64,000 bases of DNA from Buxus sempervirens (Eukaryota; Streptophyta; Magnoliopsida; Buxales; Buxaceae). The position numbers were made by a program, and so were the translations under genes. The DNA lies in the NCBI GenBank assembly GCA_947561395.2, contig OX387193.1, forward strand, positions 33,864,255-33,928,254, given 5' to 3'. Shown piece by piece: positions 12,139 through 64,000 of the stretch (position 1 is the stretch's first letter; each line of letters starts with the position of its first letter). The notes under the pieces are model-generated. The model searched no databases, had not been told where the DNA came from, and worked only from the letters and a program-made list of their open reading frames with translations.

Positions 12139-12155
12139 GCTGCCCCCTCTTTGCT
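12139..12155 (-). other. Polypurine tract of element D
   Basis: On the minus strand AGCAAAGAGGGGGCAGC directly precedes the TG of the 3' LTR, as expected for plus-strand priming. A nearly identical tract occurs next to the LTR of element E at 35875. Confidence 0.8.
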
Positions 12156-20165: not shown

Positions 20166-22000
20166 TGTGAGACATGGGAAAAAATCAATTTACATGATTT
20201 CCTCAATCATCACACGGGATTATATTAAACAAAGAGTCGCCACCATTCAATTTAGGTGTGAATGGACACCAAAATAATAAATAAGCAAAAAGGCAAATTT
20301 TAGGGCAAAATATCCCTCCTAAAAAAAACAACCAGAGATGGGTAAGGGGATTAGGTTATGAACAGGGGAAGGTGTTAGGCACCCCTATTCATCCACACAA
20401 GGTGGTTGCCAGGCATTGTTCATGTTTAATTAAAAGAAAAAGCTTGCTATAAAAATCAGGAAAAATCACAAAAAAGACAAAATTGTATGGTTTTTTCATA
20501 TGAATAGTCTGATTGATCCAGAACTATCAAACATGATCATACCATTCCTAGGGTTTCATGATCAAAATAAAATTGAGATAAAATCAAATAAAATCAATTT
20601 AAAGTGAAAAATCCAAAAATCTGGCTTCAAGTCAAAATTCTAGAAATCTAGAAAAATATGATTTTTATAAAATATTTCAAAATTGAACTTGAATAATCCA
20701 AGACATAGATAAAGCCTAAATTTCACATTAAATCTGAAAATCAAAACCAAAAATATCCATATTGAAGAAAAACACCAAAAGGGGAGAACTTAGACCGTAG
20801 GGTCTTCTCTCAATAATGAAAAACAATTTAAAAACCATATCATGAAACCCTAGAATTTATTTTCAGGCTTTTGGATCCAGATCTATCATATTGATCATGA
20901 TAAATCCAAGATCTTAGCCTAAAACCACAAAAAACACGAAAACAGTGCTGTAGGTGCAAAAGTGGTGAAAACCCAAATTTTAGAAAAAAGCGGGGATCTC
21001 ATGCTATAAACATCATGGATTCATGTTATTCATTCAGATATATCATAAAAAGCATTAAAACATGATCAGGATATTCAAAACAGCCACATCTCACAAATTA
21101 GAGCACATGGGGGTCTACCCTACGAATCCACCTGTTCCCCTTTTCCCTAGTTCTCTCTTCACGTTTTACGGCTAGAGAGACTCTTGAGGTACTTAGAGAT
21201 AGGTTTGGTTACACAAACACAATCACAGGCTTTATTCTATGAAAAAAAGAAAAAACAGATATGGGGTTTTATTCTAAGGATCCACCTGTTCCCCTTTCCC
21301 CTAGTTCTCTCTTCACGTTTTACGGCTAGAGAGACCCTTGAGGTACTTGGAGACAAGTTTAGGGATACAAAAACAGATATGGCCTTATTCTACAGCAATA
21401 GAGATGATCCTATTACATCTAGAATTGAAGACAGAAAATAAAAAGGGATAGGGGACTTACCTGGATTGAGCAGGCAGAGCAGCAGGGATTCCTTTCTCTT
21501 CTCTTGGAGTTCCTTGGGGTTCCTTGGAGTTCTTTGACTTCAAAATTTCGTGGCCCTTAGCTAGAGGAGAGAGCCTCTATTTATAGACACACCCAGGGGC
21601 AAGGTTGGTCCAAGGTTTGGCAGGATAGAGTTTCAGTTTGAGTTAAACACAAGATCATGTCAATCCTTTATCCACAAGGATAAATGAGATAATTCGAATG
21701 GATAAATAAGAGGATTCGCTTATCCAAGAGAGATATTTGGGTGCAGATAAGGCTCAAAAATAGAAAAGGTAAAATTCGCACAAAGACCCCCGTGCCCGTA
21801 TATATATTACGGTCGCGCCCTGCCCGTATTATTAATACGGGCACGCCGTGACCGTATATCAACAGCAGATATGACCAGTCCGTAGACAAAATACGGTCAT
21901 GACCAATTTGGCCAGATTTTACACTTTTTTGACCTGTTTCAAATCCCAATTAATATTTTCAATTATTTTCTCATTTTTAGTGCAATTTGGGGTGTCTACA
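20166..22000 (-). repeat. 5' LTR of element D
   Basis: Same length and apparently same sequence as 10304-12138, offset by 9862. The sense TATA box is at 21578-21585 on the minus strand. A PBS-like copy (TGGCGACTCT on minus) sits in U5 at 20233-20242. Confidence 0.95.
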
Positions 22001-22478
22001 CCTAACAGAGTGCACATTCCATTTATGCAAAATTTCAACATTTAAACTGAACTGAAATCATATGGTTCATTCCCAATTACTTTAATACATCTCAATCAAT
22101 TCAAGTTCTCAACTTCGGAACAGATAACCTACAAGTCTAAGGAAGGTAATAGTAGTCTTCCTCCCTATATGCCTCAGCAGGATCTACCCCAGAAATCGCC
22201 TCACCACGAGTATCTGAAAAAATAGAACAACAACATAGTGAGATACGAATATCTCAGCGAGTAGCACATGCATGCAGAAATAGTTGAATCACATTTTAAA
22301 ACTATGCATCGACAACACTACAATACGTTTAAACAGCCAACATCAATTTCCCAAGTTCAGTTCAAACAAATCACATCTCAGTTAAATACAATAACGCATC
22401 GGTTGGTCAATGTCATGACTATCGTTTGGTTGATAAATTAAACATGCCAAGTAGACACTCCACACCTCCATGTACACA

Positions 22479-22600
22479 GTTCCGGCCTACTCAGGGTTTC
22501 GGATACTCTGAAATGACGGCCTACTCAGGGTTTCGTCATCCAATGCAGGCCTACTCCCCGGGTTTCTGCATTGACAACCAGGCCTACTCAGGGTTTCTGG
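22479..22600 (-). repeat. Constant-loop hairpin array in solo LTR C
   Basis: Four hairpins, the same as in F: the loop GCCTACTCAGGGTTT (or its 17-nt variant in the third) lies between arms TCCG/CGGA, ATGACG/CGTCAT, AATGCAG/CTGCATT and CCAG/CTGG. It lies inside the putative LTR intron. Confidence 0.8.
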
Positions 22601-24373
22601 CTGCTCTACACCGGTCGTGGCAACACACAAGGCCATGCAATTCCAACAACCAACAATAACATCACATTACTAAGCTTAAACATCTGGATCCAGGACAAGC
22701 TAGACCAAAACAGTAAACATCGTATAATCTCGATTTCAATATCAAAACAAAACCATTCATTCCACATCATGTAAGAACTCATCACAATTCATCACCTGTC
22801 CCTCTGGACCAAGCAGTACCTCAAGTACATTCCGTATTTTCTCATTTCCATAACACAAGTCATATGAAAGTAAAACTCAATCCATTCATACCAAAGAAAG
22901 CCTTTCAATACGTATAAAGTTTCCAACAAGTGAAACCAGAATTACAAGAACTTCTCAATCAAAGCAGTGTATAGAATAAGGAAAAGTAACTGGTAACTCT
23001 TACTAGTTCGGTGTCCGGCACAATACTCCTAAGTAACCTAAAACCCAACTTGAAACTCATAAGATGTTCACAACATTTTCCTCTATTAATTTCATAGGCA
23101 AAATGGTTTCCCAGGTTCCTAACCAAGTGAATAGTGAAGTGGTTTAACCCCTAAGAAGTGCAATTACTCTTGGTCAAGTCGGAAATTCCATTTCATTAAG
23201 CAAAATAGGTCTGCCGCTCACCTATTGAGGTGGGCGCGAGGTGAGCGCCGGTCGGCGGTGAAGAAAACGGGCAAATTCGACCTGCCGCTCACCCGACACT
23301 AGGTGAGCGCGAGATGGGCGTGAGGTGGGCGTGAGGTGGGCGTGAGGTTCGCGCGAGATGGGCGCCTTGTTTTCTGCTTCGCGCGAGATGAGCGCGAGGT
23401 GGGCGCGAGATTCGCGGTAAGTCATTTTTAACAGGGCGCCTACCTCCGAGGTGAACGCCGGTGAGCGCGAGGTGGGCGGATACCCCCTGTGATTTTTTCA
23501 TTCTCTGTTATTCCAAGATCTACAAGTCTGGCCGGTTGGTTTAGGTCTGTAATGGCTCCAATACACTCCTAATACTCCCAGAACACTTCCCAACCATATT
23601 TGAAATTAATCTAAACACTTTCATTTTCAATTAAAACTTCAATCCGGATACTCTGTTCATGCAACTTTCCGAAAACCCAGAAAACAGAAAACCTCATACT
23701 ATCACTAAATATTCAAGACATGCATCCGAATAAGCTCGAGGAAAACCCAAACACAAACCCAGTGATAAAACAGTGCTACTCACCTGTGCTTATTCCCGAA
23801 CGAGAAAACCTCCGGCCGATCACTTCTCGGCCACGCGCGCGAATGAAAAAAAACTATCGAACTAAACTTCTCGAGCAGAGGGAAATAACCCAAGTAAAAT
23901 CAGCTCCGAAATCCTTCTTCCAGCACTCGCGATAGAGGGTTCTTCACGAACGAAAGCCCTAGTCGCCCTCCAGCCGAAATCGCCAATTTCCTTATGTCCA
24001 GGGTTAACGAAAATATTGCCGAAATTATGCTAAGCGCATTTTCATAAACCCGAACCCTACTTTCCATTTTCGTCTACTTACCTATTACATGCTCGCTCGA
24101 ATACTCTCCCATTTCTTGATCCTATGCATGTTCGCCTACGGAAGACACTACCTATTCAGCATCTATTCCCGTTTAAAATCACATAACTACACCTTAAGAA
24201 TACCAATGATAATAATACTATTTTTCGGAAAAATGGCTATATAACGCCTGTACATATGAGTATGGGCTAAGCCCTCAAACCACAAAATAACCTGATAAAC
24301 ACAGTTTATACATCAGAATAAATAACTAAATAAATAAATAAATATTCACAAAAATTCAGGGTCTTACATTATT

Positions 24374-40658: not shown

Positions 40659-43410
40659 TGTAATACTCCGAATTTTTCAAATTTATTTATTAATTTAAAT
40701 CTGTAAACTATTAAGATTAGTTGCTAATTAGATATTTGATTTAAATAGGAAATCATGTAGAGGAGGTAGATCCAAAATATGAAGTCAATCCGACAGCTAA
40801 TTATGAGATACAAGGTAAGAAAGATATCAAGTAATTATTTTTAATTTTATTGGTTGAGTGCTTTAAGCTTGGTGGTGTGGCATTGTATGGTATCATGATT
40901 AATTAAATAATAATATATGAGGAGCATGGGCATACATATAAGAATAGGTAGTTGCTATTGAAGGGTTTCTAATATTTGGAAGACTTAAAAAATAATTAGG
41001 TTTGCAATGTGTGATTGATTTAGACTTGGAGAATTGCTAAAAACTCTTTGTTATTTGCTTTGGACGGCTAAATTAGAGGAAGGAGAAAGGAGAAGACTCT
41101 ATGTGCAGCCTTGAGAGGAGATTTTCATGGGCTTGCTGTTGCTATGTGGAGAAGGGATCATTCTTTGAAAGTTTTGTTTGGTTTGGATTGTGAAGAAGGT
41201 AAGTAGCAACCTTTACATGGCGAAAACTTGCATGATTTATGTTTATACGTGAAACACGATGTTCCTTGGATTTCCAAAGATTGAGAAGCATGTTTGAATG
41301 TTTTTTGATGAGTTTGGTTGACATTTAAAGTATGGAAAAATAACTATTGTTCTTCTCGTTTAGTTTTCTGTTTATTGTAACTTTTGGATAAAAACTATTA
41401 TTTTAATGAGTAGATTTGTTAGTAATTGTTTTGGGATGATTTAATATGTTTAAAGAATGATTTTAAATGTGTTAAAAGTGATCTTGAATGATGGAAATAA
41501 GTTTTGGAAAAAGAAATAGAAAATTCAGAATTCTGTTGAAAAACCAAGATTTTGTGTATTTGTACTAGCTCCCAAATCGACGTTCAAACGCCCTATCAGG
41601 TGCTAGTTATATGTTGAGGTCGCCCAATACGTAGTTCGAACGTTCTATTAGGCACCCCGTCTGTGTTATATTTTTGTAAAAACTAGAACCCGAGAGTGAT
41701 TTGTTTGGACGCCCAAGCCATTGTTTGGACACCTAATCAAGCATTGGTTTTGAACAGGATTTCTAGTTAACACCCAATACGTTATTTGAATGCTACATTG
41801 GGTGTCTAAATGAGTGATTTTGAAAATTTGAATTTTAAGCGAACGCCCAATACATGGCTTGAACGACGTATTGAGAGTCCAACCCAGATTTTCTAGTTTT
41901 AGGTTTTTACCTAGTTTCTCAATATAAAATGATTTTTGAGCAGAGACAACACATGTACAAATAAGATTTGGGCATTTAGAAGTAATTTCCAGTGGCCAAA
42001 TAATTTTATAAAAATTATATAAAATTTTGGGTATGTTCTACTGAAATAGCTCATATTTTAGTTCCAAGAGGGAATTTGACCTTAAGTTTGATTTTTTTGT
42101 GAATTTATTGGTTTCAACAATTGTAAAAGTATGTTTTAAAGATGTTTTAAGCTCTGGAATGGTAAGAAATTATTTTCCTACAGATTTAGGTAGATTGAGC
42201 CTAATTTTTGGATTTGGACAATTTTGTGAAAATTTGTTTTTTTTTTTTTTTTTTTTGGTGAGGGGGATGATTTTATTTATTATTTTTCTCCGTGATGGAG
42301 TACATCTTGCCATGATGGCAGTAAACATAAAATTTTCTCCATGAGGGAGTGGTTTTGCCAAGAGGGTACTATTGACTTTAAATTGACCATGAGGGCTATG
42401 ATTCTTGATTTCTTTGCCATGATGGCACTACCTTATGTTTTGGTCATGAGGACCATATGTTTTGGTTTTGTTTGTGGTAATTATCAGGCTTAACTTGTTA
42501 TGGATCCATAGTTTAGCTAGTAGTGAAGTCTGTCTATCTTTGTTTGGATTAAGTCTAGTTCCTTTATTATTTCCTCAATGACAGAGAGGCCTTCTATGAG
42601 AGATGAGCTGCAGCAATTCCTTTTCCACCATTAGGGTGAGGTCTCTTATATTCCACCATAAGGGTGATGATACAGCCGGATATGTTGCAGTTTGTTCTCA
42701 GATTGGATTTGTTGGACTAGGTCTTGACCTTTCAAAGTGTTCATATTTCACGAGCCCTGTGAAATCACATACACTTGTGTTTGTTTTGATTCTCATGAGG
42801 AGAATACTTGTTGATTTTATTTTAGAAAGTAGTTGTTAAATGCTCAATTGCTTTGAATTGTGATTAGTCAGATTTCTTGCTGAATTTGTTATACCTCGTG
42901 AACTGTATTTTATGTTAGCAACATGGGACTATTTTGTTCATACATGTTGTTACTTACTGGGATTTTATCTCACCCCATGTTTTTAATGTTTGGCTTTCAG
43001 ATCCTATTGGTGAGGATGATATTGATGGGTAGAGCCACAGGGTGTTGATCATCAGGACGATTACTTTGATCTTATGTAGGGATTTTATTTTGAGTAAATG
43101 GATTGTAGTAGGATTTATTTCAGTTATTATTGGCAGTATATTATTTGATTTGATGATTAGAGAGTTGAGAGAGTTAGTTGACACTTTCCTTTATCCAGAC
43201 TTATTGTTAATTGATTTTGGATTAGTTGATCATGTTTCCTTATTTATTTGAAGGATATTAATAAAATTTGAATTTGATAGCGTACTCTGATGCTCGTTTA
43301 ATTATTATTGATTTAAATTTTGTCTGGATATTAGTTGCTTTGGGCCTACAGAGCTAGCACTTTGGGTTTGGATTATTCATGAGGAATATATCTGGATTCG
43401 GGGCGCTACA
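40659..43410 (+). mobile_element. Solo LTR K
   Basis: Starts TGTAATACTCCG and ends GGGGCGCTACA (2752 bp). Flanks are CCCTG and CCCCG, a 5-bp duplication with one C-to-T change at a CpG. No coding sequence. Putative splice donor AAG then GTAAGTAGCAAC (41199) and acceptor GGCTTTCAG (ends 43000). A TATA-like TATAAGAATAGG is near 40937. Confidence 0.85.
42288..42666 (+). repeat. Constant-loop hairpin array in solo LTR K
   Basis: Eight small hairpins with 5-nt loops of ATGAG type (ATGAG, ATGAT, GTGAT, AAGAG, ATTAG, ATAAG) and arms CTCC/GGAG, TGCC/GGCA, TGCC/GGTA, TGGTC/GACCA and CACC/GGTG. A ninth at 42385 is degraded. Confidence 0.8.
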
Positions 43411-43802: not shown

Positions 43803-46290
43803 TGTAACGCCCCGGATCCGTGTTGTTCAATAAAGATATAACACGTCTCACAGAGGTTAGGCAAGGATCGTTAATCAATTTATGATTGCTGAATAATCAT
43901 ATAGCTATAACCTGACAGAGTGCACATTTCCATTTATGCAAAATTGTAACATTTAAACTGAACTAGAATCGTATGGTTCAACCCCAATTAAACTTTAATA
44001 CATCTCAATTTATTCAAAGTTCTCAAATTCAGAACAGATAACCTACTAGTCTAAGGAAGGTAATAGTAATCCTCCTCCCTATAAGCCTCAGTAGGATCTA
44101 CCCCAGTAATCGCCTCACCACGAGTATCTGAAAAACAAGCAAGACAAACAACGGAGTGAGATACGAATATCTCAGCAAGTAGCACATGCATGCAGAAATA
44201 GTTGATCACAATTTAAACTATGCATCGACAAACGCTGAATACGGTTAAACAATCAACATCAATTCTCAAATCGAAATTCAAGACTGGTTCTAATCAAACA
44301 AATCACATCTCAGTTAAGTACGGTAACACATCGATTGGTCAATGTCAGGACTATCGTTTAGTTGATAAATTAAACATGCCAAGTAGACACTCCACACCTC
44401 CATGTACACAGTTCCGGCCTACTCAGGGTTTCGGAACTCTGAAATGACGGCCTACTCAGGGTTTCGTCATCCAATGCAGGCCTACTCCCCGGGTTTCTGC
44501 ATTGACAACCAGGCCTACTCAGGGTTTCTGGCTGCTCTACACCGGTCGTGGCAACACACAAGGCCATGCAATTCCAACAACCAACAATAACATCACATTA
44601 CTAAGCTTAAACATCTGGATCCAGGACAAGCTAGACCAAAACAGTAAAACATCGTATAATCTCAATTCCAATATCAAAATAAAACCATTCATTCCACATC
44701 ATGTAAAACCCATCACAAGTCATCACCTGTCCCTCTGGACCAAGCAGTACCTCAAGTACTTTCAGTATTTTTTCATTTCCGTAACACAAGTCATTTGAAA
44801 GTAAAACTCAATTCATTCATACCAAGGAAATCTTTACAATACATTTAAAGTTTCCAAACCAGTGAAACCAGAATAGAATAACTCCTCAATCAAAACAGTG
44901 TATAAAACAGAGGAAATCTAACTAGTAACTCTTAGTGGTTTGGTATCTGGCATAACATTCATGAATAACCTAAACTCAACTTGAAAGCTTTTAAGAAGTT
45001 CACTAAATTTTCCTCTAATAGTTTCCTAGGCAAAATAGATTCTCAGGGTTCCCAAACAAGTGAATAGTGAAGTGGTTTAATCCTCAAGTAACCCAAATAC
45101 TCTTAGTTAAATCAAATCTCCAATTCAGTAAGCAAAATAGGGTCTGCCGCTCACTTCCTGAGGTGGGCGCGAGGTGAGAGCCGGTCGGCGGTGAAGAAAT
45201 GGGGTAAAATCGACCTACCGCTCACTCGACGCTAGGTGAGCGTGAGCTGAGCGCGAGACGGGCGTAAGGTGGGCGCGAGATTCGCGCGAGATGAGCGCAG
45301 GGTTTTCTGCTGAGCGCGAGCTGAGCGCCAGCCGGGCGTGAGCTCGGCGGTGGGTCGTGTTTAACGGGGCGCCTACCTCTTAGGTGAGCGCTGATGAGCG
45401 CGAGGTGAGCGGATACCCCCTGTGATTTTCATTTCTCTGTTATTCCAAGATCTACATGACTGGCCGGTTTGTTTATGTCTGTAATTGTTCCACTACACTC
45501 CTAATACTCCCAGAAGACTTCCCAACCATATTTGGATTTAATCTAAATACATTTAATCTCAAGATAAATTTCGGTCTCCGACTCTGTTTCATGCCATTCC
45601 AGAAAACTAAAAGAAAACTCAAGAGATCATTTAAACTACAACCATGCATCAGAATAATCTCGAGAAAACATAAAACACAAAACCCCAGTTGTAAATCAGT
45701 GCTACTCACCTGAATGCGCTTATTCCAAAGTATAGCAAAACCTTGGCCGATCACCACTCCGGCCACGCACGCGAACACAGAAACTACCCAACCAATTCGT
45801 CTCGAACAGGGAGAAAGAACCCACTCAACTTCAACTCCGAAGCCCTTCTCTTACCCCTCGCGATACTTGTTCTTCACGAGCACAGAACCCTAGTCGCCAC
45901 ACTCTCCAGCCGATTCTCCTGAGCTCCTGAGTATTAGACTAACAACAATATTTCCGTAAGTACATACGCGTATTCTCTTAAACCTAAAACCCTACTTTCC
46001 CTATTTGTACATTACGTTGCGAGATACATATGCTGCTCGATCAACCCTTTTAACCCCTTGATCCTATGCATGCTCGCCCACCGGAAACACTACATGTTCC
46101 GCATCCATTTACGTTAATAAGCACATAACTATACTTTAATAATAATAATGATAATAATATGATTTTTCAGAAAAATGGCTATATAACTCCTGTACATACG
46201 AGTATGGGCTAAGCCCTCAAACCACAAAATAACCTGATAAACACAGTTTATACATCAAAATAAATAACTCACAAAAATCAGGGTCTTAAA
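43803..46290 (-). repeat. 3' LTR of element F
   Basis: Same family as solo LTR C. Internally it holds the hairpin array (44411-44531), a GC-rich GAGCGC block (45140-45410), and a splice donor-like CAG/GTGAGTAGCAC with intron side starting 45709. The inner end reads TTAAA instead of TTACA. Confidence 0.95.
44411..44531 (-). repeat. Constant-loop hairpin array, 3' LTR of F
   Basis: Same four hairpins as at 54869-54989, offset by 10458. Confidence 0.85.
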
Positions 46291-46330: not shown

Positions 46331-49300
46331 TCAAGGAGGAACAAACAATTCCGGATACTTCTTCTTCATCTCTTCCTCACCTTCCCAAGTGCATTCTTCC
46401 ACAGTATGATTCTGCCATAGCACTTTCACTAAGGGAACAACCTTGGTGCGAAGAATCTGCTCACGACGGTCTAGAATCTGAACTGGCCTCTCTTCGTATG
46501 TCAGATCTTCTCGGATCACTAAAGGTTCAGGATTTATCACGTGACTAGGATCCGCTATGTACTGCCGCAACATGGATATATGGAATACATCATGGACTCC
46601 TGCCAAATGGTTTGGCAAAGCTAGTTTATAAGCTACCGGGTTAATCACCTTCACAATCTCAAACGGCCCAATAAAGCGTGGAGACAACTTCCCTTTCTTC
46701 CCGAATCTCAGGATTCCTTTGGAAGGCGATATCTTCAAGAACACTTGGTCTCCCACTTCAAATTTCAGCTCACGTCGTCGGGTATCTGAATAACTTTTCT
46801 GACGACTCTGCGCAGTCAACAACCGCTGTCTAATCAATTTCACCTTTTCCATACTATCTTGTATAATCTCAGGCCCAAAGTACTGTTTCTCTCCTATCTC
46901 CACCCAACACACAGGAGATCTACAAATCCTGCCATAAAGTGCCTCGTAGGGTGCCATTTGTATACTAGCCTGATAGCTATTATTGTAAGCAAATTCAGCT
47001 AAGTGTAAATACTTACTCCAATTCCCACCCCAATCTAGGACACAACATCTCAACATGTCCTCCAGAGTCTGGATAGTTCTCTCTGACTGGCCGTCGGTCT
47101 GTGGGTGGAAACTAGTACTAAAACTCAACTTAGTTCCCATGGCCTCCTGGAAACACTGCCAAAAATGCGAGGTAAACCGAGAATCCCTATCCGATACAAT
47201 GGACACTGGAACCCCATGCAACCGGACTATCTCTCGAGTATACAGCTCAACCAATGATGCCAAAGTCTGAGTGGTCTGGTAAGGCAAAAAGTGAGCTGAT
47301 TTGGTTAGTCTATCCACAATCACCCATACGACGTTGTGATTCTTAGCTGTAGGCGGTAGCCCATTCACAAAATCCATCGATATATGTTCCCATTTCCACT
47401 CAGGAACCGGCAAAGGTCGCATCAAACCTGGAGGTCTCCTATGCTCTGCCTTCACTTGTTGACAAGTAAGGCACCTTGCTACATACTCCGCAATGTCCTT
47501 CTTCATTCCTGACCACCAATACACTGTCCTTAGATTCTTGTACATCTTGGTACTCCCAGGGTGAATTGCATATTTGGACCTGTGACTCTCGTCTAGGATC
47601 AATCCCCTGACTTCAGCATTATTTGGAACACAAGTCCGCCCGCGAAATCTCACCAATCCATCCTGAACATCAAAATCTTTCGTGGCCTCATCATCCTTCT
47701 CTACTAACCCTTTGATGCGTAACAAATCAGAATCTGCCAACTGACCCTCCCGTATACGCTGAATCAACTCTGGCTCTGCTTGGACTCGTGCCATGATCAA
47801 TCCATGCCCATGAGTGCTGAACTCCCCAGGCCAACCTACAACTGTATCAACAAGAGTGCACTGACTAGCCATGAAAGTAGCTAGTGTGGCCACCTCATCT
47901 TGGGAAACAACCCTACGACTCAGTGCATCTGCGATCACATTAGCCTTGCCCAGGTGATAATGTAATGTGAAATCATAATCCTTTAGAAGATCCATCCATC
48001 TCCTTTGCCTCATATTCAGCTCTCTCTGGGAAAATATATATCTTAAGCTCTTGTGATCTGAGAATATCTCGAATTTGGCTCCCATCAAATAGTGCCTCCA
48101 CAACTTAAGTGCAAACACGATCGCTGCCAACTCCAGATCGTGCGTAGGATAGTTCTTCTCATGAGTGCGTAGCAACCTTGAAGCATAGGCTACCACACGC
48201 CTTTGCTGCATCAAGACACAGCCCAACCCTATTCGAGAAGCATCACAATAGATCGAAAATCCCTCACTCACTGATGGCACAATCAAGACTAGAGCTAAAG
48301 ACAGTTTACCCTTCAATTCTTGGAAACTAGACTCACACTTGTCGTTTCACTCAAATTTCACAGCCTTCTTAGTGAGATTTGATAAAGGTGCCGCCACTCA
48401 AGAAAAGTTCTTGATGAACCTTCTATAATAACCCGCCATTCCCAAGAAACTCCGTACTTCAGTCACCGACGAAGGTCTAGGCCAATCTGCCACAGCCTGA
48501 ACCTTAGCTGGGTCCACTGCTATCCCATCTCCTGAAATCACATGCCCCAAGAAACTTACTTCTCTTAACCAAAATTGGCACTTGCTGAACTTGGCATACA
48601 ATCTGTGCTCTCTCAACGTCTGCAATATGGTTCGGAGGTGCCGTACATGATCCTCTCTATTTCGAGAATACACTAGAATATCGTCAATGAACACAACCAC
48701 AAAGCTATCTAAGTGGGTGTGAAATATCCGATTCATCAGGTTCATGAAAACAGCTGGGGCATTAGTCAGCCCAAAAGGCATAACCAGAAACTTGTAGTGC
48801 CCATATCGAGTACGGAAAGCTGTCTTCTCTATATCCTCTAGGGCTACTCTCAACTGGTGGTATCCAGATCTCAGGTCGATCTTAGAAAACCAAGACGCTC
48901 CCCTCAACTGGTCGAACAAGTCATCAATCCGAGGCAATGGATACTTATTCTTGATGGTGACTTGATTCAACTGGCGGTAATCTATACACATCCTCATCGT
49001 CCCGTCCTTCTTCTGGACAAACAGGACCGGTGCACCCCATGGTGACACACTGGGTCTAATAAAACCCTTTGCTTCCAATTCATCCAACTGTTTCTTCATC
49101 TCATGATTTTCAGGTTGTGACATTCTGTATGGTGGTTTGGATACAGGTGCCGTACCAGGTAAGAGTCGTATACTGAACTCAACCTCTCTAGGTGGTGGTA
49201 ATCCCGGTAGATCGTCTGGGAATATGTCATCAAACTCTGCTACTACAGGCACACTAGAAAGACTAAGTGCCGTAGCCTTTGCCTCCTCAACCTCAATGGA

Positions 49301-50548
49301 TGCTACCAAACTGATCCGTGTTCTCAACCCTTCACATCGGAAACAGTGCACTGGCTGGTCTGGCTGACATACCATAATGGTACCCCTATAGCAATCTATG
49401 CTCACATGATGTCGAAAAAGCCAATCGATGCCTAAGATCACATCAAATTCCCCGAATTCCAGTTCTACCAAGTCCCCTGGCAACTCCAAAGAACCCAATC
49501 TGATCATGCAATCCCTAAATACGGTCTGTACTCTAGTGGTTTCCACCAATGGTGTGTGTACAAGTAACTCGGACTCGAGTGTGGAAGGAACCAAACCAAT
49601 ACGGCATGCACATAAAGGAGTAATGAAAGACCTAGAAGCACCCGAATCGAATAAGCATACGGCTGATCTACCATGAATGAAAAGAATACCTCCAACCAAC
49701 TGTGGCGCCTCTGGCTCCTCCTCACGAGCCTCCTCGACATGCCCTCCCTCAGGCTCATCCTCCTGAGCTGCTACTACGTATACTCTAGTTTGCTGGGGGC
49801 GTGGGGGTGGTGCCTGCCGTCTCTGAGGTGCCTGCTGCCTTTGTGGTAACTGCTGCCTCTGATATCCCCCACTGCTCTGACCCGGAAATCTCGACGGTGC
49901 TGGAAGTGCTGGCACGGGTCTAGAATACTGAAATCTCGAAGCCTCGGCCGGTCGGGTGTCCATAGGTGCAGTAAGGGCTGGCTTGAGTAACTGGTAAGTG
50001 TTCGGGTGGGGACAGTCAGCAACCCGATGCCCATGCTGGCCACATCTAAAACACGCGCCTGGAGGTGACACGCACGGACCTGGGATGTGAAATCGGCCGC
50101 AACTGAAGCAACCCCCTGAGCCTCTCCTATCTCTCTGTCCATAGTCGATCCTCGGTCTCTTGTCCCTGTCCAGGACCCTCCGTGTCTCTGTGCCGCTAGG
50201 CTGTGCTTTAACCCTGCTCTGCTCAACCCCTGAATCTCTAATCTCTCTCTCAACCCGCAGAGCTCTCCCCACTAGGTCAGAGTATCTGGTGCACATCAGC
50301 ACCGAGACTATGCGCTTGATGTCTGCCCTCAGTCCTCTCTCAAAATGTTGGGTGCGCCTCTGCTCATCATGCACTATATGGTGAGCAAATCGAGAAAGAA
50401 CCACGAACCTAGCCTCGTACTGTGCTACGGTCAAGGATCCCTGAGAGATATCCATGAACTCTCTCTCCTTCTGCAACCTCACCTCTGCAGAGAAATACTG
50501 CTCATAAAAGACCTGCCTGAACTGGTCCCAAGTCATCTGGATCCCATC
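46331..50548 (-). pseudogene. gag-pol: gag (C-terminal part)-pol of element F
   Basis: One frame. From 50548: rest of the gag domain ([14 protein letters not shown]), a CCHC zinc knuckle ([14 protein letters not shown]), protease with LFDSGAS (about 49650), and reverse transcriptase with [10 protein letters not shown] (about 48680). Next come RNase H (IYCDAS, SDHKSL) and integrase with its HHCC finger (CLTCQQ), SMDF, SDRDSRF and TDGQSERT. A type II-like chromodomain closes the protein (VLWQNHTVEECTWE...YPELF). Only two nonsense codons: TGA at 48398-48400 (Arg expected) and TGA near 48346 (Trp expected). It is therefore almost intact apart from insertion G upstream. Confidence 0.95.
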
Positions 50549-51134
50549 TACCGTGTAAAACCCCGAATTTTCACCTAATAAATAAAAAAATAATAAATAA
50601 AATAAAATATGAGTTAAGTCCTAATTAAAATAAAAAGTGAAGATTTAGAGGATAATTAATCCAAATAAGTTCTAAGTTGAAAATAAAGAAAGAATTTTAA
50701 TGAAATTAGCCTAAAAGAATAAAAAGGGTATTTTGGTAATTTCCAAAAAAATGGTAATTAGTAAATAGATCATCAAATAATAATTAGAATTAGAAAATAG
50801 AAGAAAACAAATTATTTTGACAAGTTAGAAATTAAAAGAAATTAATAAAAGCCTAAAAGTGGGAAAAAGGGGTAATTAGGAGATTTCACGTCTTAATTTG
50901 GAGAAAATAAGGTTTTAAGTGATAGAAATGTTTAATTAAATATTTTGCATGAAAATAGGTTATTTTCATGAGTTTCGATAATAAGAAACTTAATTAGTAT
51001 TGTTTAAGTAGAAAATAGAATGTGGAGAAAAAGTAGGAATTAAATTAGAAGGATTAGACATTAACTAAACCATGGTTGGGTTAGCCCAAATTAAATTAGC
51101 CAATTAGGGTTGGTTTAGGATTTCTAAAGCCTAG

Positions 51135-51144
51135 TATAAATAGG
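51135..51144 (+). promoter_or_regulatory. TATA box of solo LTR G
   Basis: TATAAATAGG, about 580 bp into the LTR and about 490 bp upstream of the putative splice donor at 51629. Confidence 0.65.
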
Positions 51145-52996
51145 AGACTAAGGTTAGACAAGAGGGAATTTTCGTGGGTTTCTTATGGAGAGAAAAGAGA
51201 GGGAAGAAAGGAAAAAGGGAGGTACTGCAGAGGTCCGACCAGCAGACTTTGAGCAACGATCCCCGGAGATCTAGTCGTTGGATCGTCATGAAATTTGGAG
51301 GGTATGCTCTATACATGATATGCTTAAATCTGAACGGTTAAGATTGGATTTGGATGAGTCTAAGGTGGTGCGAATTAACCCAGAAGTTGGTGCAAAATCG
51401 GATGTTGGAAGAAAAAGGAGTTGCAGAGATGGCCGACTAGTCAACTTCGAACGGGGAGATAGAAAGATCCAACCGTTGGAATGAGCTGAAATTTTAGGGT
51501 TTTGTTCTACTCATGGAGGACTTCAGACTGAACGGTGGAGATCAAAATTGAAGAAGTTTAGAGGGGTCCGGTCGAGCTCCAAAAACGTGCACAGAAGATG
51601 TTCGGAAAAATGTGGATTCATCAAAAAGGCAAGTAGCAAACACTTGAAACTGGAGGAATTGCATATTTTCTTGTGTTTTTGATGATTGATCGTATCGGTT
51701 CTTAAATTGAATTTCATTGGAAAAGTTAGATGTTTATAAAGTTTCGATTTGGTGATGTGAAGCTCTTTTAGGAATCAAGAAAAATGTTGTTCATAGGTGG
51801 AATTAAATTAGAAAGAAACCCTAGTTAAGTTTTAATTACCAAGATGTGAGTGGCATTGTTTTACAACCGAGTTTTCGGATTAATTCGTGTATTTGATTGA
51901 ATGAATGCATTGTTTATGATTGAAGTATTCTCGGTGTGTTTTCTGGGCAAACCAGTTACGGAGGGTTTTGTACAGTGAATTTGGGGATAACTGGAAATCA
52001 TGTAGATTAAATCCAAATTAGGTTTGGATGTGTCCTGGGAGTATTAGGAGGCTATATAAATGGTTACAGACTGAAAAATTTCAGCCAGAGTTGGATTTCT
52101 GGGATTAACAGAGACCTGGGAATCGTAGTGGGCTACCGCCCACTTGGCGCCTACCTGGCGCCCACTTAGGAAGTGAGCGCCAAGAAAAAAAGACCCGGCG
52201 CCGAGTTAGCGCCCACCCCGCGCTCAGCTCGCGCCTACCTCAAGTTTGAGCGCCTTTCTCGCGCTTTTCTCGCGCCCGTCTGGCGCCTAGCTCGCGCCCA
52301 CTCGTCCACGAGTGAGCGCCAGCTTCAGTTATACGAGCGGACTTACCGCCCACTTGGCGCCTACCTGGCGCCCACTTAGGGAAGTGAGCGCCCAGTTGTT
52401 TTTCGTGCAGAATCCTATAATTTCGTAAAACCAAGGGGGTTCTGGATACTAGAGGGTCTTCGACCACTTACCCAACTAATTGATTACGACATTAGAGATA
52501 ACAATTTGCTTGTGAGAACATTGAAAATAGATCCTAGTTTTAGTAAAGGCTTATGAAGTAGAGGTTGGGAAATAAGTCGACGATGTTCGGGATATCTACA
52601 TACTAGGGCTTTATTTTAGTCCTCTTGAAGCATGCACTGTTTGGTACTTGATTTGTTTTATTAAACCCCGTTTTGATGGCAAGCTTTGAATTAAGTTGTA
52701 AATATTATTTACTTGATTTCTTGTGTGAGTTGATGTTCTGGTTGGAACACTGGTGTGAGTTGATGTTCTGGTTGGAACACTTGTGTGAGTTGATGTTCTG
52801 GTTGGAACACTTGTGTGAGTGGATGTTCTGGTTGGAACAATGGGTGATGTGTACTAATGCAGAGTTTTAAACAGTTATTTATCGGTTTTGGTTTAGCTCG
52901 TCCTGGATCCAGAGTCTAAGCTTAGTAATGTGATGTATATGCTTTATTGGTGTAATGGCATGGCCATGGAGTGTTGCCACGACCGGTGTAGAGCAG

Positions 52997-53114
52997 CCAG
53001 AAACCCAGAGTAGGCCTGGTTGTCAGTGCCGATACCCGGAGTAGGCTGGCATTGGATGACGATACCCTGAGTAGGCCGTCATTTCAGAGTGTCCGATACC
53101 CTGAATAGGCCGGA
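52997..53114 (+). repeat. Constant-loop hairpin array in solo LTR G
   Basis: Four hairpins in the same sense order as in F. Arms CCAG/CTGG, CAGTGCC/GGCATTG (one G-T), ATGACG/CGTCAT and TCCG/CGGA. Loops are 15, 17, 15 and 15 nt, of the form ATACCCTGAGTAGGC. Confidence 0.85.
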
Positions 53115-53655
53115 ACTGTGTACATGGAGGTGTGGATGTCGCTCTGGCATGGTTGATTAACCAATCTAAGCAACTACATGACATTGACCATTCGATGTTT
53201 TATCGGTATTGTTATTGAAAATATGAGTTGATAATAATAATGGGATTTGATTTAAACTTTGGAATTATCCTTGTTAATGTTGTTGGTTTAATCGTACACC
53301 TCATGATTTATTTTGTAAACATGGACTGATTTCATGCATGCACCTTGCTACTTGTTGAGATTTATTCTCACTCCGGTTTCTCCCATTTTTCAGGTACTCT
53401 TGGTGAGGACGTTAAGTTGTGGGTTAGTTGTAGCTGGGTAGTCTATATAGATGTAGGATTGCTCATATAATTGAAACCCTTTTTATATTATAATTGTTGA
53501 TTAATAAAGAGAATTTGAATTCCAGTTTCCGCTTTTACTCTGATTATAAAGTTAGAAAAAGTTTTAAATTATTCCATATTTTAGTTGCTTTTGTTGCTTA
53601 TCATAACACCTCGGGTTTTTGGGAATTGGACCCGGAACCGGGGCGTTACATACCG

Positions 53656-54242: not shown

Positions 54243-54256
54243 GGTCTCTGATACCA
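54243..54256 (-). other. Primer binding site of element F
   Basis: On the minus strand TGGTATCAGAGACC, 4 nt inside the 5' LTR. It resembles the initiator-Met tRNA PBS (TGGTATCAGAGC) typical of chromoviruses. Confidence 0.85.
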
Positions 54257-54260
54257 TCTC

Positions 54261-56768
54261 TGTAACGCCCCAGATCCGTGTTGTTCAATAAAGATATAAC
54301 ACTTCTCACGGAGGTTAGGCAAGGATCATTAATCAATTTATGATTGCTGGATAATCATATAGCTATAACCTGACAGAGTGCACATTTCCATTTATGCAAA
54401 ATTGTAACATTTAAACTGAACTAGAATCGTATGGTTCAACCCCAATTAAACTTTAATACATCTCAATTTATTCAAAGTTCTCAAATTCAGAACAGATAAC
54501 CTACTAGTCTAAGGAAGGTAATAGTAATCCTCCTCCCTATAAGCCTCAGTAGGATCTACCCCAGTAATCGCCTCACCACGAGTATCTGAAAAACAAGCAA
54601 GACAAACAACGGAGTGAGATACGAATATCTCAGCAAGTAGCACATGCATGCAGAAATAGTTGATCACAATTTAAACTATGCATCGACAAACGCTGAATAC
54701 GGTTAAACAATCAACATCAATTCTCAAATCGAAATTCAAGACTGGTTCTAATCAAACAAATCACATCTCAGTTAAGTACGGTAAGACATAGATTGGTCAA
54801 TGTCAGGACTATCGTTTAGTTGATAAATTAAACATGCCAAGTAGACACTCCACACCTCCATGTACACAGTTCCGGCCTACTCAGGGTTTCGGAACTCTGA
54901 AATGACGGCCTACTCAGGGTTTCGTCATCCAATGCAGGCCTACTCCCCGGGTTTCTGCATTGACAACCAGGCCTACTCAGGGTTTCTGGCTGCTCTACAC
55001 CGGTCGTGGCAACACACAAGGCCATGCAATTCCAACAACCAACAATAACATCACATTACTAAGCTTAAACATCTAGATCCAGGACAAGCTAGACCAAAAC
55101 AGTAAAACATCGTATAATCTCAATTCCAATATCAAAATAAAACCATTCATTCCACATCATGTAAAACCCATCACAAGTCATCACCTGTCCCTCTGGACCA
55201 AGCAGTACCTCAAGTACTTTCAGTATTTTCTCATTTCCGTAACACAAGTCATTTGAAAGTAAAACTCAATTCATTCATACCAAGGAAATCTTTACAATAT
55301 ATTTAAAGTTTCCAAACCAGTGAAACCAGAATAGAATAACTCCTCAATCAAAACAGTGTATAAAACAGAGGAAATCTAACTAGTAACTCTTAGTGGTTTG
55401 GTATCCGGCATAACATTCATGAATAACCTAAACTCAACTTGAAAGCTTTTAAGAAGTTCACTAAATTTTCCTCTAATAGTTTCCTAGGCAAAATAGATTC
55501 CCAGGGTTCCCAAACAAGTGAATAGTGAAGTGGTTTAATCCTCAAGTAACCCAAATACTCTTAGTTAAATCAAATCTCCAATTCAGTAAGCAAAATAGGG
55601 TCTGCCGCTCACTTCCTGAGGTGGGCGCGAGGTGAGCGCCGGTCGGCGGTGAAGAAATGGGGTAAAATCGACCTACCGCTCACTCGACGCTAGGTGAGCG
55701 TGAGCTGAGCGCTAGACGGGCGTGAGGTGGGCGCGAGATTCGCGCGAGATGAGCGCAGGGTTTTCTGCTGAGCGCGAGCTGAGCGCCAGCCGGGCATGAG
55801 CTCGGCGGTGGGTCGTGTTTAACGGGGCGCCTACCTCTTAGGTGAGCGCCGATGAGCGCGAGGTGAGCGGATACCCCCTGTGATTTTCATTTCTCTGTTA
55901 TTCCAAGATCTACATGACTGGCCGGTTTGTTTATGTCTGTAATTGTTCCACTACACTCCTAATACTCCCAGAAGACTTCCCAACCATATTTGGATTTAAT
56001 CTAAATACATTTAATCTCAAGATAAATTTCGGTCTCCGACTCTGTTTCATGCCATTCCAGAAAACTAAAAGAAAACTCAAGAGATCATTTAAACTACAAC
56101 CATGCATCAGAATAATCTCGAGAAAACATAAAACACAAAACCCCAGTTGTAAATCAGTGCTACTCACCTGAATGCGCTTATTCCAAAGTATAGCAAAACC
56201 TCGGCCGATCACCACTCCGGCCACGCACGCGAACACAGAAACTACCCAACCAATTCGTCTCGAACAGGGAGAAAGAACCCACTCAACTTCAACTCCGAAG
56301 CCCTTCTCTTACCCCTCGCGATACTTGTTCTTCACGAGCACAGAACCCTAGTCGCCACACTCTCCAGCCGATTCTCCTGAGCTCCTGAGTATTAGACTAA
56401 CAACAATATTTCCGTAAGTACATACGCGTATTCTCTTAAACCTAAAACCCTAATTTCCCTATTTGTACATTACGTTGCGAGATACATATGCCGCTCGATC
56501 AACCCTTTTAACCCCTTGATCCTATGCATGCTCGCCCACCGGAAACACTACATGTTCCGCATCCATTTACGTTAATAAGCACATAACTATACTTTAATAA
56601 TAATAATGATAATAATATGATTTTTCGGAAAAATGGCTATATAACGCCTGTACATACGAGTATGGGCTAAGCCCTCAAACCACAAAATAACCTGATAAAC
56701 ACAGTTTATACATCAAAATAAATAACTAAATAAATAAATAAATAACTCACAAAAATCAGGGTCTTACA
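54261..56768 (-). repeat. 5' LTR of element F
   Basis: On the minus strand TATA-like TTATATAGCC lies near 56635. Putative intron from 56167 (CAG then GTGAGTAGCAC) to 54586 (TTTTTCAG), 1582 nt, which would remove most of the LTR from the leader of the gag mRNA. The hairpin TGAGAT/ATCTCA is at about 54615-54635. Confidence 0.9.
54869..54989 (-). repeat. Constant-loop hairpin array, 5' LTR of F
   Basis: Loop GCCTACTCAGGGTTT (15 nt; 17 nt in the third unit) between GTTCCG/CGGAAC, ATGACG/CGTCAT, AATGCAG/CTGCATT (8 bp with the outer C-G) and CCAG/CTGG. Confidence 0.85.
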
Positions 56769-58602: not shown

Positions 58603-61113
58603 TGTAACGCCCCGGATCCGAACCTCATATCCAAACCCGGAGTGTTAAAGTAACAGTGGCCCAAAAACATACTAAACCAGACAATAATTTTAAAATAGAA
58701 CTTTATTCATAATCAGAGTGCGGAAGAAAAATATTAAACCTAAATATAAGTGTGGATTACATAAATCAAAGTATCCAATAATTCCATCAATCAATAGTAA
58801 CCATCAAATAAAAATGTCTGGTAGGGGTTTAACTATAGTACTCTGAAATAACCCATGATCAACTACTATAAACTTCCTAATCAACTGAAACATAAAATAA
58901 TATTGTTCCCTAATCCTACATAGTGAAGTAGTCTTCTTCTCTGTAATCAGAATAGTCCCCTTGCGAATCAGGTTCCACAATGTCCTCACCAAGATAATCT
59001 AAAAACAAATCCGATAAAACGATGTGAGATAATAAAATCTCAGCAAGTAGCCATGTAGAAAAGAAACATTTATATAGTTCTGAATATGCAAACGAATAAT
59101 CAAATTAATCCAGCAATTCAAATCTCAAAACAAACATTCACGATAACTCTTACAGGACGCATGAAATAGGAGATAGAGAATCGACAAGCTATGCCAATAT
59201 GCTACCTAACAGGTTTACAGGTGGACCAGCCACTATCGGTCAGGTTATTTGACACCCAATGGAAGAACTCAACCGATACCGGAGTGAGTTAGCATGTATG
59301 TCCCAACCAATCCAAGAGTGGGTAACGTAGCAACCGACTAATACAGGAGCGGTACTATCCTCGTGATGATGGAATGCCTATGACCTAGAATCCGAACTCT
59401 AATAACATTCCACTTACTAGTTACTCTATGGATCCATGTAAGAGCTAAGCCCACTCAACAGCGGCAAACCAAAACCAAGTAGTAGACATATGTCACCAAA
59501 TCCATATATGCAAAAATCAATAATATAGGCATACGCCAAGTCACATACGTGGAGAGATACATGTCCAAAATCATGGTTTCAATAGGCAAATATGATCTGA
59601 GTGTACATTAAAATCAAATTTCATTTAAAAGAAAAGAGTTTGGAACGATAAACTTGGATAAAAGCTATTTCAGTAAAACGTATCCAAAATCTTTATAAAA
59701 ATTCGATTTAATCAACGGCCAATGCGAACAATCTCTAAACACTCTAATCTTATTGGTACATAAGTTGGAAATCAATAAAAACAATTTTATATTGAAAAAC
59801 TAGGCTGATTTCAAAATATCAGAAAATACTGTCAGGGGCACTTGTGTGGCCATCCGTTAAAACAGGTTTTGAAAAGGTTCTTAGAGAGTTCGTCACTCAA
59901 GAGGGCGCTCAAGCGACGACTCGGGCATTCGATTTATCGAAATCTGTCAACTCTCAGGTTTCAGAACTTTGAAAAAAAAAAAGCACAGGCGGAGCGCCTT
60001 GAGTAGCGCTCGAGCGGCGACAAGCGTCTGCTCTTTACAATTGGCGCTTGGGGTGACGCTCGAGCGTCATTGTAGGCATTCGCTATATTTCGTAGATTTC
60101 TGAAATTCGTGATTTTTCAAATTTTAGATTCATTTTTCCCGAACTTTTAACATCTCAAATCACTTCCAAATCTTGGGTTTTTATCTTCAAAGTACTCTAA
60201 ACTATGCCAGATGATCAAATACATCAAATAACAAACTTTCATAACAAATTATTCACAAACAACCGAAAATCTCTTGTTTAAACAAGTTCATCGATAAACC
60301 AACACATATTCGTTTATGCAAGTTGTAAGGGACTACTTACCTCTCTTCTTAGATTAGATCCTTCACAAACAATTGGGAAACCACTCTCTTGATATTCCAA
60401 ACGAACACAGCAACTCATTTCTGATTTAAATCATTATAAACATGATCTCAGAAAATTTTTCAGCAAACTAAACCATACATGAAATCCATAGATTGAATTT
60501 TAGATTTATTCTCCTACCTTAGATCCCACAAAAACACTCCTTCTTCTCCTTCTGGTCTGATCAAAGCCAAAGCAATGGTTATCAAACACTCTAGAATTCC
60601 AAACATATAAAGGAAAGGCTGCGGCTGTTTCCTTTCTCTCTCTCTCTCTCTCTCTTTTTCCTTCTTTTCTCTCTAACGTGAATGGCAACCTTCTAATTTT
60701 ATTTTCTTTTCATATTTTCGTCCACCACTACTAATTAAACCTAATAATCTTTCTTTTTACCTTCCTACCCTTCAAACTATTCAAACCATTGTATTAACTC
60801 TCAATAAAGTTTATCTTAGTCGATCACACCCTTCTCTAGTGGGATTCAGCCACTTATATAAAGAATTAAATTTTTATTTCTTTTAAATTACTGATTAGTT
60901 AATTTCTCATCATCCAACATCTATAAAATTAATGATACTAATTATCTTAAAACAAAAATATAAACTCACCTTATATTTTAATTCTCCTAGTTCTCCGGGT
61001 CACCCTGCAACTCTCCAGGTTGAACCAATTCCTCATTCTTTGCAATATTAATATTAACAATTAATATAGTTATTTTATCTCATTTATTTATTAATAAAAT
61101 CTATGATTTTACA
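58603..61113 (-). mobile_element. Solo LTR H
   Basis: Starts TGTAACGCCCCGG and ends ATGATTTTACA (2511 bp), with perfect TTGTA duplications (58598-58602, 61114-61118). Sense is minus. No coding sequence. Putative intron 60340 (AGAG then GTAAGTAG) to 58999 (GTTTTTAG). GC-rich block with GGAGCGCC at about 59905-60075; CT microsatellite at 60634-60656. Confidence 0.9.
59266..59353 (-). repeat. Constant-loop hairpin array in solo LTR H
   Basis: Three hairpins with 13-nt loops ACCGATACCGGAG, ACCAATCCAAGAG and ACTAATACAGGAG, and arms AACTCA/TGAGTT, CCCA/TGGG and ACCG/CGGT. Confidence 0.7.
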
Positions 61114-61720: not shown

Positions 61721-64000
61721 TGTAAAATCCCGAATTTTTAATAATATTAAAAATTAGGATTTTATGGTTGCTAATTGATTTAATTGGTGGAAAATTTCAG
61801 GAAAGAAGAAAGGGAAGTTATTTAGAGGAAATTTCATCATTGAATTATGAGGATTAATTAAGTTGGTAAGTAGTATTTAAGATTTGCTCATTGACTAAAC
61901 TTATGGGGTTAAGAAGTGTGACAATCATAGAATCAAATCAAGTTTAATCATGCTCATGCAGGTAGTAAATGGTGGTGTGGTGTAGCAACGGATTAGGACA
62001 ATTGAATACCTGAGTTGGGCGGCAACTATAAATAGCTACCAAACTTCGGTTAGAAGGTTTAGTCGCTGGATCGATAATCCTAGAGCATCTGAGAAGGAAG
62101 GGAGAGAGATCTAGGGTTTGAAGATTGAAGGTAGACGACAGTTCTAGAGAAGACAGAATAGTTCGAATCTAGAGGGCATTGGATTGGAGAAGGAGTTGGA
62201 ATTTGTTTGGAGCTAAACGTCAGTGCATGGTTTGATTTGATCTGGTGGAATTCTACAAAACAGAGAGTAATCAGGTGAGTTACGATTATAATCTGTAAAT
62301 TAGTCAGAATTATGAACTATTAGAGGTTAGAGATCAGAACGGGGGAGGTTTTTGAGGAATTATGTTGTGTTTGATTCGTGGATTGAGCTCAGATTTGTGA
62401 TCTCCGGAAGGAATTGAGTTGAATTTGAACTAAACAGAGGTAAGTAGCACCTTTAGAAATCTAGTTTATTGTTTGATTTTGTTTGTTAAGAACCTGATCA
62501 TGATTTGAACGAAATAAACTCTGTTTGTATGTATAATGGAGGATAATTTGAAATTCGTTGATATTCTGTTTCGATTAAATCGATGGGTGTGCATCTGAGT
62601 TGTTAAGTGGTTATAGAATGGAATTGAATTGGTTTGGAAGAGGGAAATTGGGTCAGAGATCATGAAGTTCAGGTTTCAAAAAGGAGATGTTACGATTTTA
62701 ATGGATCGCTCAGCCAGGGCGCTTAGGCGAAGCGATCAAATTGGTGCAAATCTTATATGGGTGCCTAGCACATCGCCTAGGTGATGTGCCAGGTGACCCA
62801 CACTTCACAAAAATTGCAGAGATGTCTAGACTAGGCGCTTAGGCGCCCATGCTAGACAACCATTGAAGCTTAGGCTTTTAGTTGCTATAAAATTTGGGGA
62901 TTTTATTCATGGAATTATTTTAAACAAATCTAAAGAGTGAACAATTAAAGTTAATTAGATTAAGAAATATTTCTGGAAGGGATCAATAATTCATTTTATT
63001 AAGTAATTGTGCAACTGTTACAAGAGTAATCTTCTTTAAATGTATGTGGTTTCTAATTTTTAAAATAAAATGAGTTAATGAAAATAATTGCAATGTCTTA
63101 AACTATCAGAAAATGCAACAATGGTTTTGGAAATTATAATTTAATTTGAGTTTGAGATTTGGTTCCAGATTCTAATTTCCTCCATGTACTCAGGGATGCC
63201 CCATGTACTTGGGATGATGATGCCTATGTGTACTCAAGGATGCCCCGTGTACTCGGGATGAGATGATTGTATTTGAGTCGAGTTTGTGCTTATTTGATAT
63301 CATATTAGTTTTGTTTTCGAGTCTAGTTGGCATAGCTCGATATGGATCCATTTAGGAGCTAGATAGTGGAAAGGATTATTCTTTGCTAGATGTAATTCTT
63401 TGTTCATGCACGCATTCCATCGTTTACTCGATGAGGCCTTCTCTGTACTGGTGGGCTGCGGCTTTCCCTCATCTTATCGTGTACTTGGACTATGACTGGT
63501 AGTACATGCTAACCCTTCGCTGTACTGGTAGGGTTCTCCCGCAATAAGACGATGATCTTGTACTCAACTTCACACATAAGCCAGGAGGTGGCACAGTGGA
63601 CATTGACTTTACACTAGTTAAAGGCAGTCTTCTTTCATGAGTCCTACTGGGACTTAATGTTTTAAATTAAAAATTGCGGATTATTTTTACTTGATGAATT
63701 ATTTGATTATAATTGTATTAAAATTGGAAATTGAGGATGTATTATTATGGTTAATCGGATATATATTGTGTTATTGTTATCGTGATATGTTTTACAACTG
63801 AATCATGTTTTAGAACTATAAAATTGTATTTGTAGCATGCATGTCCTACTTGCTAGGATATTTGTATCTCACTACGTTTTGTTCCACAAGTAGACACTAA
63901 CGATTACCCGGAGTATAGGGAGGAGGACTACTACATGGAGGAGTAGTAGTCATTATTTATTTAGTCTTTTGTTGTTTGAGATTACATTGGATGGTGAGTA
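61721..64000 (+). mobile_element. LTR I (runs out of the window)
   Basis: Starts TGTAAAATCCCG after the flank GTTAC (61716-61720). TATA box TATAAATA at 62027. Donor-like AG then GTAAGTAGCACC at 62440; acceptor-like site ending 63890 (weaker, CCACAAG). GC-rich hairpins with AGGCGCTTAGGCG at 62707-62860. The right end and internal region, if any, lie outside. Confidence 0.8.
63187..63535 (+). repeat. TGTACT-loop hairpin cluster in LTR I
   Basis: CCCA/TGGG and CCCG/CGGG each around TGTACT (63200-63213, 63244-63257). Larger ones with the same core in the loop: GATGAGG/CCTCATC (63430-63473) and AACCCT/AGGGTT (63511-63535). Confidence 0.6.

Follow-up and report, generated by a model that had tools for sequence, protein, structure and literature searches.

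Repeated hairpins with a common loop and differing, still pairing stems in the LTRs of a Ty3/gypsy retrotransposon of Buxus sempervirens

The window analysed here is a 64-kb stretch of the Buxus sempervirens genome (C19:33864255-33928254), and the genome that was searched with sequences from it comprises 676.5 Mb in 247 contigs. Within the window lies element F, a Ty3/gypsy LTR retrotransposon with the gag-protease-RT-RNase H-integrase order between its LTRs (Table 1). The two F LTRs are 99.1% identical, and a 5-bp repeat read from the sequence, CTGAC, stands outside both of them. The chromodomain match of the second ORF (PF00385; 22.3 bits, E 1.3e-4) falls under the curated cut-off of 25.1 bits. 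The PBS-like TGGTATCAGAG that follows the 5' LTR is presumably of the PBS type matching the initiator Met tRNA. Since the minus strand carries both the gag-pol ORFs and this PBS-like sequence, it is also the RNA sense of the hairpin array described below; the initial annotation had written the array on the antisense strand. A Plant mobile domain match was also found within the window.

Table 1. Features of the window with position, strand and remarks; hairpins are written with the loop in brackets.
Feature	Position	Strand	Sequence or remark
5' LTR of element F	54261..56768	-	ends TGTAACGCCCC / GGGTCTTACA
3' LTR of element F	43803..46290	-	partner of 5' LTR
PBS-like TGGTATCAGAG	54246..54256	-	directly after F 5' LTR
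ORF: Gag, zinc knuckle, protease, RT	48398..50536	-	Pfam matches
ORF: RNase H, integrase, weak chromodomain	46331..48316	-	Pfam matches
F hairpin H1 (sense)	54963..54993	-	GCAGCCAG[AAACCCTGAGTAGGC]CTGGTTGT
F hairpin H2 (sense)	54930..54962	-	CAATGCAG[AAACCCGGGGAGTAGGC]CTGCATTG
F hairpin H3 (sense)	54901..54929	-	GATGACG[AAACCCTGAGTAGGC]CGTCATT
F hairpin H4 (sense)	54868..54896	-	AGTTCCG[AAACCCTGAGTAGGC]CGGAACT
Conserved island around array	54840..55100	-	LTR positions about 1681-1920
Matching array, F 3' LTR	44410..44535	-	
Matching array, LTR C	22478..22604	-	one extra base in H4 arm
Diverged array, solo LTR E	52993..53117	+	loop ATACCC in 3/4 units
Putative splice donor CAG|GTGAGTAGC	56167..56167	-	upstream of array in sense; motif level
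Putative acceptor region TACTTGCTGAGATATTCGTATCTCAC...TTTTTCAG	54586..54640	-	downstream of array in sense
X array, three hairpins	59261..59370	-	ACCG[CTCCTGTATTAGT]CGGT, CCCA[CTCTTGGATTGGT]TGGG, AACTCA[CTCCGGTATCGGT]TGAGTT

Read in the sense, the F array consists of four adjacent hairpins of 7-8 bp each, separated by 0-4 bases and capped by G-AAACCCNGAGUAGGC-C. The loop is 15 nt long and identical in three of the four units, and is 2 nt longer in the remaining one. The initial annotation had placed such hairpins, with one common loop, at 54869-54989, 44411-44531 and 22479-22600. The array sequences are indeed present there, and each holds exactly three copies of GCCTACTCAGGGTTT: the common loop is exact in all hairpins but the third in plus-strand order, which reads GCCTACTCCCCGGGTTT in both F and C. 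The arms, which had been said to differ completely, are still complementary; the wording was too strong, as every one of the F units closes with a G-C pair. What had been taken for a 4-bp hairpin, CCAG/CTGG, is in the sense an 8-bp stem, GCAGCCAG/CUGGUUGU, with two G-U pairs. The array in the other F LTR is the same one, as claimed, but in LTR C one arm has gained an extra base (CGGATAC), which forms a bulge. A fourth array, diverged and on the opposite strand, had been missed. It belongs to LTR E, a solo LTR (50554-53650, TSD TACCG) located within F, and its H2 stem is CAGTGCCG/TGGCATTG. In the predicted sense fold of F, C and E, a short outer stem encloses the four hairpins. LTR C (region 22000-24368) seems not to be a simple solo LTR: because its missing sense 3' end is matched at 10190-10301, we read it as split by an element with LTRs at 10304-12141 and 20166-22003. 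These two LTRs are 99.9% identical.

Several comparisons place the arrangement above chance. Allowing 3 mismatches, GCCTACTCAGGGTTT has 14 matches in the 64-kb window, as compared with 1.53 expected from shuffles. When the four left arms of F were assigned to the four right arms in all 24 ways, only the true assignment paired all four, with 8, 8, 8 and 7 paired bases. Both strands were also searched for any 10-mer that recurs with three different arms, each of 6 or more pairs (G-U included); once tandem-repeat tracts are set aside, the two F arrays are the sole matches, and they match in the sense orientation alone. A blind scan for the same loop with different stems, limited to Watson-Crick pairs, gave the arrays of F, C and E a score of 45 on both strands, and the best score elsewhere in the 64 kb was 24. 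An ordinary tandem repeat or minisatellite is ruled out, as the loop alone repeats and the arms differ and pair. The folding energy of the array as a whole is unremarkable, with a z of -1.15 for the global fold in the sense (27 of 200 shuffles equally good) and of -2.30 in the antisense (3 of 200). The structure of the array, as opposed to its function, is well supported.

Between E and F, no other part of the LTR is as well conserved as the array. In a comparison of the two LTRs by 60-nt steps, identity was 82-95% in the four steps of 1681-1920, as opposed to 25-73% in all others. Between C and F there is no difference in 1741-1920. Three H2 pairs distinguish the window copies of E and F (A-U to C-G, A-U to G-U and G-C to G-U), and all of them pair in the sense; at the last of these, most other E-type copies keep G-C.

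Copies of the array number in the hundreds in the genome. A two-loop pattern with an unusual stem base gave 154 + 150 = 304 exact matches, and the reversed control gave 0. First-look candidates numbered 808 for the F-array query, 2114 for the E-array query and 2389 for a diverged-array query, with 40 scored per query. A total of 119 arrays was read from 116 loci. The alignment termed A3 contains 86 genome arrays and two window arrays (88 copies, 85 distinct rows). The 33 arrays left out of it were mostly identical or near-identical, the others including three-unit or cut arrays (L090, L097, L100 and L132) and secondary matches (L106 and L109); L152 also stands outside A3. At six loci (L088, L089, L091, L098, L103 and L109) the first array is followed downstream by a second, in which the H1 and H4 stems differ and, in five of the six, H3 is without the loop. 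Viral contigs held 18 single matches to the loop pattern and 9 to the flank pattern, which we take as chance because none had two units, and no relative of the integrase ORF was found among them. Another flank pattern had 0 matches in other sequence collections, and there was no match in the plasmid collection and 0 matches among bacterial and archaeal contigs.

The initial annotation had read the array as selected for its structure, a view that covariation in a family alignment would support and independent change of the two arms would oppose. Taking the four hairpins with the outer stem, 96.0% of the cells of A3 are paired, as compared with 94.3 ± 0.2 in shuffled alignments. Two-sided change occurs in 10 pairs (6.3 ± 1.4 shuffled; 3 of 500 shuffles reach 10), double change in 40 cells (11.9 ± 3.0; 0 of 500 shuffles), and the covariation score is 0.110 (0.086 ± 0.002; 0 of 500 shuffles). 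Slid controls gave 2-5 two-sided pairs and 3-6 cells. Pair 15-33 of H1 is A-U in 65 rows, C-G in 14 and U-G in 3, and is unpaired in 3. Across lineages, the stems of H1 appear as GCCAG/CUGGU, ACCCG/CGGGU and CACCG/CGGUG, and those of H4 as GUUCCG/CGGAAC, AAUCCG/CGGAUU and UAUCCG/CGGAUA. Ten units aligned on the loop, picked by hand for their difference, were 95.7% paired against 65.9 ± 4.3 in shuffles, with a covariation score of 0.803 against 0.217 ± 0.064 (0 of 500 shuffles); the four F units were unselected. RNAalifold on the 88 copies kept H1 and proposed another fold for the remaining three hairpins, which scores 0.111; of its 29 pairs 8 change on both sides, with 27 double-change cells. 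Because this fold covaries about equally, the A3 counts cannot choose between it and the four hairpins. Selection on structure is supported by stems that change with pairing kept between the units of an array, between E and F, and between sub-lineages in homologous hairpins.

The check as a whole came out mixed: the alignment has its excess of double changes, but the arms of old copies do decay independently. Pair-breaking changes are mostly C-A or A-C, as expected of dead insertions, and the loss of pairing in old copies is CpG-type decay. Because such decay on both arms can mimic compensation at the tips, we give weight only to changes between lineages. On a tree built from the loops and flanks, the internal branches carry 3 double and 14 single changes that keep a pair, 8 that restore pairing and 15 that break it; two of the three double changes share one column and depend on the rooting. 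At the tips, pairing is kept by 13 double and 72 single changes and broken by 70. By source of the copies, the paired cells are 60/60 (window), 178/180, 743/750, 643/690 and 882/960, where the pattern behind the 690-cell group favoured broken pairs and gaps make up 3 cells of that group and 16 of the 960-cell group.

The hairpin-array design seems to exist with another loop in a second family, X. The X loops are of their own 13-nt type, CTCC(T/G)G(T/G)AT(T/C)(A/G)GT, which by eye has C-C-N-G-N-N-U-N-G-G in common with the F loops, and the X array lies downstream of a landmark, TAGCT..GGATCCAT, that is common to F-type LTRs. Its score is 39 under a loose rule, reached by 0 of 60 and 0 of 100 shuffles, and below 15 under a stricter stem rule. 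Of 1631 genome candidates for the X query 40 were scored, and 39 copies were retrieved, of which 38 were aligned with the window copy and one (L190), with its end misplaced, was left out. In this alignment the array is conserved, with a mean column identity of 94%, and 96.1% of cells are paired. Covariation within the family is weak, with 19-41 of 500 shuffles reaching each of five measures, and the three hairpins are not all within the minimum-energy fold of a longer region.

Two further LTRs of the window were noticed by eye. LTR G (62950-63600 +) has an apparent same-loop array with a TGTACT loop, and LTR D (42290-42800 +) an apparent array with an ATGAK loop and the stems CTCC/GGAG, GGTC/GACC and TTCTC/GAGAA. 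The loose rule gives them scores of 18 and 20, respectively, and 0 of 60 shuffles reach either, in regions that were chosen by LTR homology after the hairpins had been noticed. The stricter window scan puts D at 15 and both G and X at less than 15, with unrelated places at 15, 18 and 24. Since this is near background, we treat G and D only as leads and rest X on its genome copies. Nothing convincing was found in LTR A, where 3 of 60 shuffles reach its score. A survey of the landmark gave 17 matches in the window and loci, 8 without and 9 with the F loop. Among those without it, only X scored (39, 0 of 100 shuffles) and the other seven, including D, G and A, were at 0. Only two of the nine with the F loop scored (45), which indicates that the array statistic misses decayed arrays.

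At the level of motifs, the array lies in what looks like an intron of the LTR. Of the 7 diverged LTRs examined, 5 (F, C, E, G and D) have a single donor-like G[TC][AG]AGTAGC after AG, located upstream of the array zone, and X and A have none. Downstream of the array, a motif search found a TACTTGCTGAGAT...CTCAC-like stretch in 6 of the 7 LTRs and also in C, there with a mismatch, and the pyrimidine-rich CAG after this stretch is clear in F, C, E, A and D, not in G. The array is about 280 nt before the putative acceptor and some 600 nt upstream of the PBS, inside the LTR. Directly after the acceptor-like site, F (54480-54590 -), G (63900-63960 +) and X (58900-59000 -), read by eye, have in common a short, apparently coding end, ..YREEDY..stop, which hints at a small peptide encoded by LTR exons.

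Plant retrotransposon LTRs have been treated mostly as promoters and fast-evolving filler, and to our knowledge it is poorly known how abundant plant retrotransposons select their own RNA. Then, what could such an array do? Its function, including transcription through the array, splicing, the binding partner and packaging, is what we infer from here on; in the initial annotation, too, a loop-binding factor and a role in packaging or silencing escape were conjecture. Our best explanation, put forward tentatively, is that the array is a conserved sense-RNA element of a chromovirus-type LTR retrotransposon that would provide multi-site docking on the unspliced genomic RNA, plausibly bound by Gag for packaging. 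We propose a repeated RNA-protein docking site because the loop is constant and the stems are free but paired. The apical loop would be the recognised part, and the stems would need only to pair. Because the array lies between the putative splice sites, inside the putative intron of a long LTR leader, it would be confined to the unspliced, genome-length RNA, which is the form that needs packaging. The four stem-loops may form a docking platform that marks the genomic RNA, with the element's own Gag/nucleocapsid as the plausible binding partner, like a retroviral packaging region. A design with a constant loop and free stems separates recognition (loop) from scaffold (stem) and is directly testable, and a repeated RNA structure conserved across hundreds of copies within one genome would make a well-defined target for protein pull-down and for RNA probing.

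The SL-C/SL-D pair of retroviral stem-loops has a role in packaging. In the part of the source available to us (PMC5874298), SL-C and SL-D of the gammaretroviral (MuLV) leader are neighbouring stem-loops with GACG tetraloops that are tied to RNA dimerization, and they resemble the F array as adjoining stem-loops with one common loop in a genomic leader. The F array differs in its 15-nt loop AAACCCNGAGUAGGC instead of GACG, in its four units, in belonging to a plant element known here from sequence alone, and in lying within the LTR, far upstream of the PBS. A GACG kissing-loop pair is ruled out, as the loop is AAACCCNGAGUAGGC and there is no GACG apical tetraloop. BARE of barley is a Copia-type element. 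Like F it is a plant LTR element, and the accessible part of PMC3735527 reports that its packaged RNA is separate from its translated RNA, with splicing; it differs in that the reported intron is in the coding region, and no hairpin array is described in that part. The docking design, the putative intron position, the GACG hairpins and the RNA pools of BARE are the reasons why we rank packaging or genomic-RNA selection first, followed by splicing/export, a DNA-level site, an antisense RNA and no function.

Other structured RNAs were compared. Retrozymes, which carry hammerhead ribozymes, resemble the array as structured RNA in plant LTR elements (PMC4918200). A hammerhead retrozyme or another known Rfam family is ruled out by the lack of any Rfam match at gathering thresholds in the window; the single weak match in 54600-55200 was to SCARNA7 (E 2.2). 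Chromoviruses that prime themselves from a 5' hairpin resemble the putative chromovirus F in having a hairpin structure (PMC3601003, in part). F differs in having a tRNA-type PBS, with the array placed within the LTR about 600 nt before it, and self-priming is unlikely for F given the PBS-like TGGTATCAGAG after the LTR. No such array is described in the accessible parts of PMC10578108, PMC6911290 and PMC3601003, and a literature search, with most subscription papers outside its reach, found no description of one.

An extended form of the packaging reading, which we consider rather unlikely, would make the array a retrovirus-like, multi-site genomic RNA tag in the LTR intron of plant chromovirus-type elements, in which the apical loop serves as a lineage identity code (CCNGAGUAGG in one family, CCNGKAUYGG in the other), the stems may drift if they stay paired, and the Gag of each lineage selects only its own unspliced RNA. 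It is likewise rather unlikely that the hairpins have no packaging role and regulate the retention or removal of the LTR intron through a host RNA-binding protein. Control of splicing or export would agree with the position of the array between donor-like and acceptor-like motifs and with the spliced class and the separate translated and packaged RNA pools of BARE (PMC3735527, in its available part). The same facts fit packaging equally well.

Repeated sites for a transcription or silencing factor that happen to sit in short palindromes would account for the exact 15-mer repeats in the LTR and for the AAACCCT in three of the four F loops, a motif which we take to resemble the plant telo-box. 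We regard such a DNA-level element as unlikely, since arms that differ and yet pair are needless for a DNA-binding site, and the array is conserved even though the E-type loops are ATACCC in three of the four units.

Which strand acts is relevant to a further alternative, in which an antisense transcript or RNA from either strand is the functional molecule, for instance a small-RNA precursor. Folding energy does not favour the sense strand, as many diverged copies have the more stable fold in the antisense, and in some related copies the closing pair of H2 is A-C in the sense and would be G-U in the antisense. The wobble pairs, in contrast, favour the sense strand: A3 has 341 G-U cells in the sense as compared with 90 A-C/C-A cells, and four of its pairs are G-U in most rows. 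These fixed G-U pairs suit the sense alone, the hairpins are short, and we know of no antisense promoter, all of which makes an antisense molecule improbable. An array without function, in which the pairing is left over from a single successful master copy, would fit the many copies identical by descent and the free decay of dead copies, but is very improbable given that the LTRs of E and F align poorly beyond the island, that stems have been replaced with pairing kept, and that family X has a parallel array.

Apart from the array, these LTRs and their neighbours contain other repeats. In E-type LTRs (52720-52850 (+) and L088), tandem repeats of about 30 nt with a TGTTC/GAACA hairpin lie about 150 nt upstream of the array. 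The LTRs of F (55590-55870 (-)) and E (52120-52390 (+)) each have a GC-rich stretch of repeated GCGCTCACCTCGCGCCCACCT-like words, and a neighbouring element contains at 17356-18644 a long minisatellite, whose period is about 43-48 bp.
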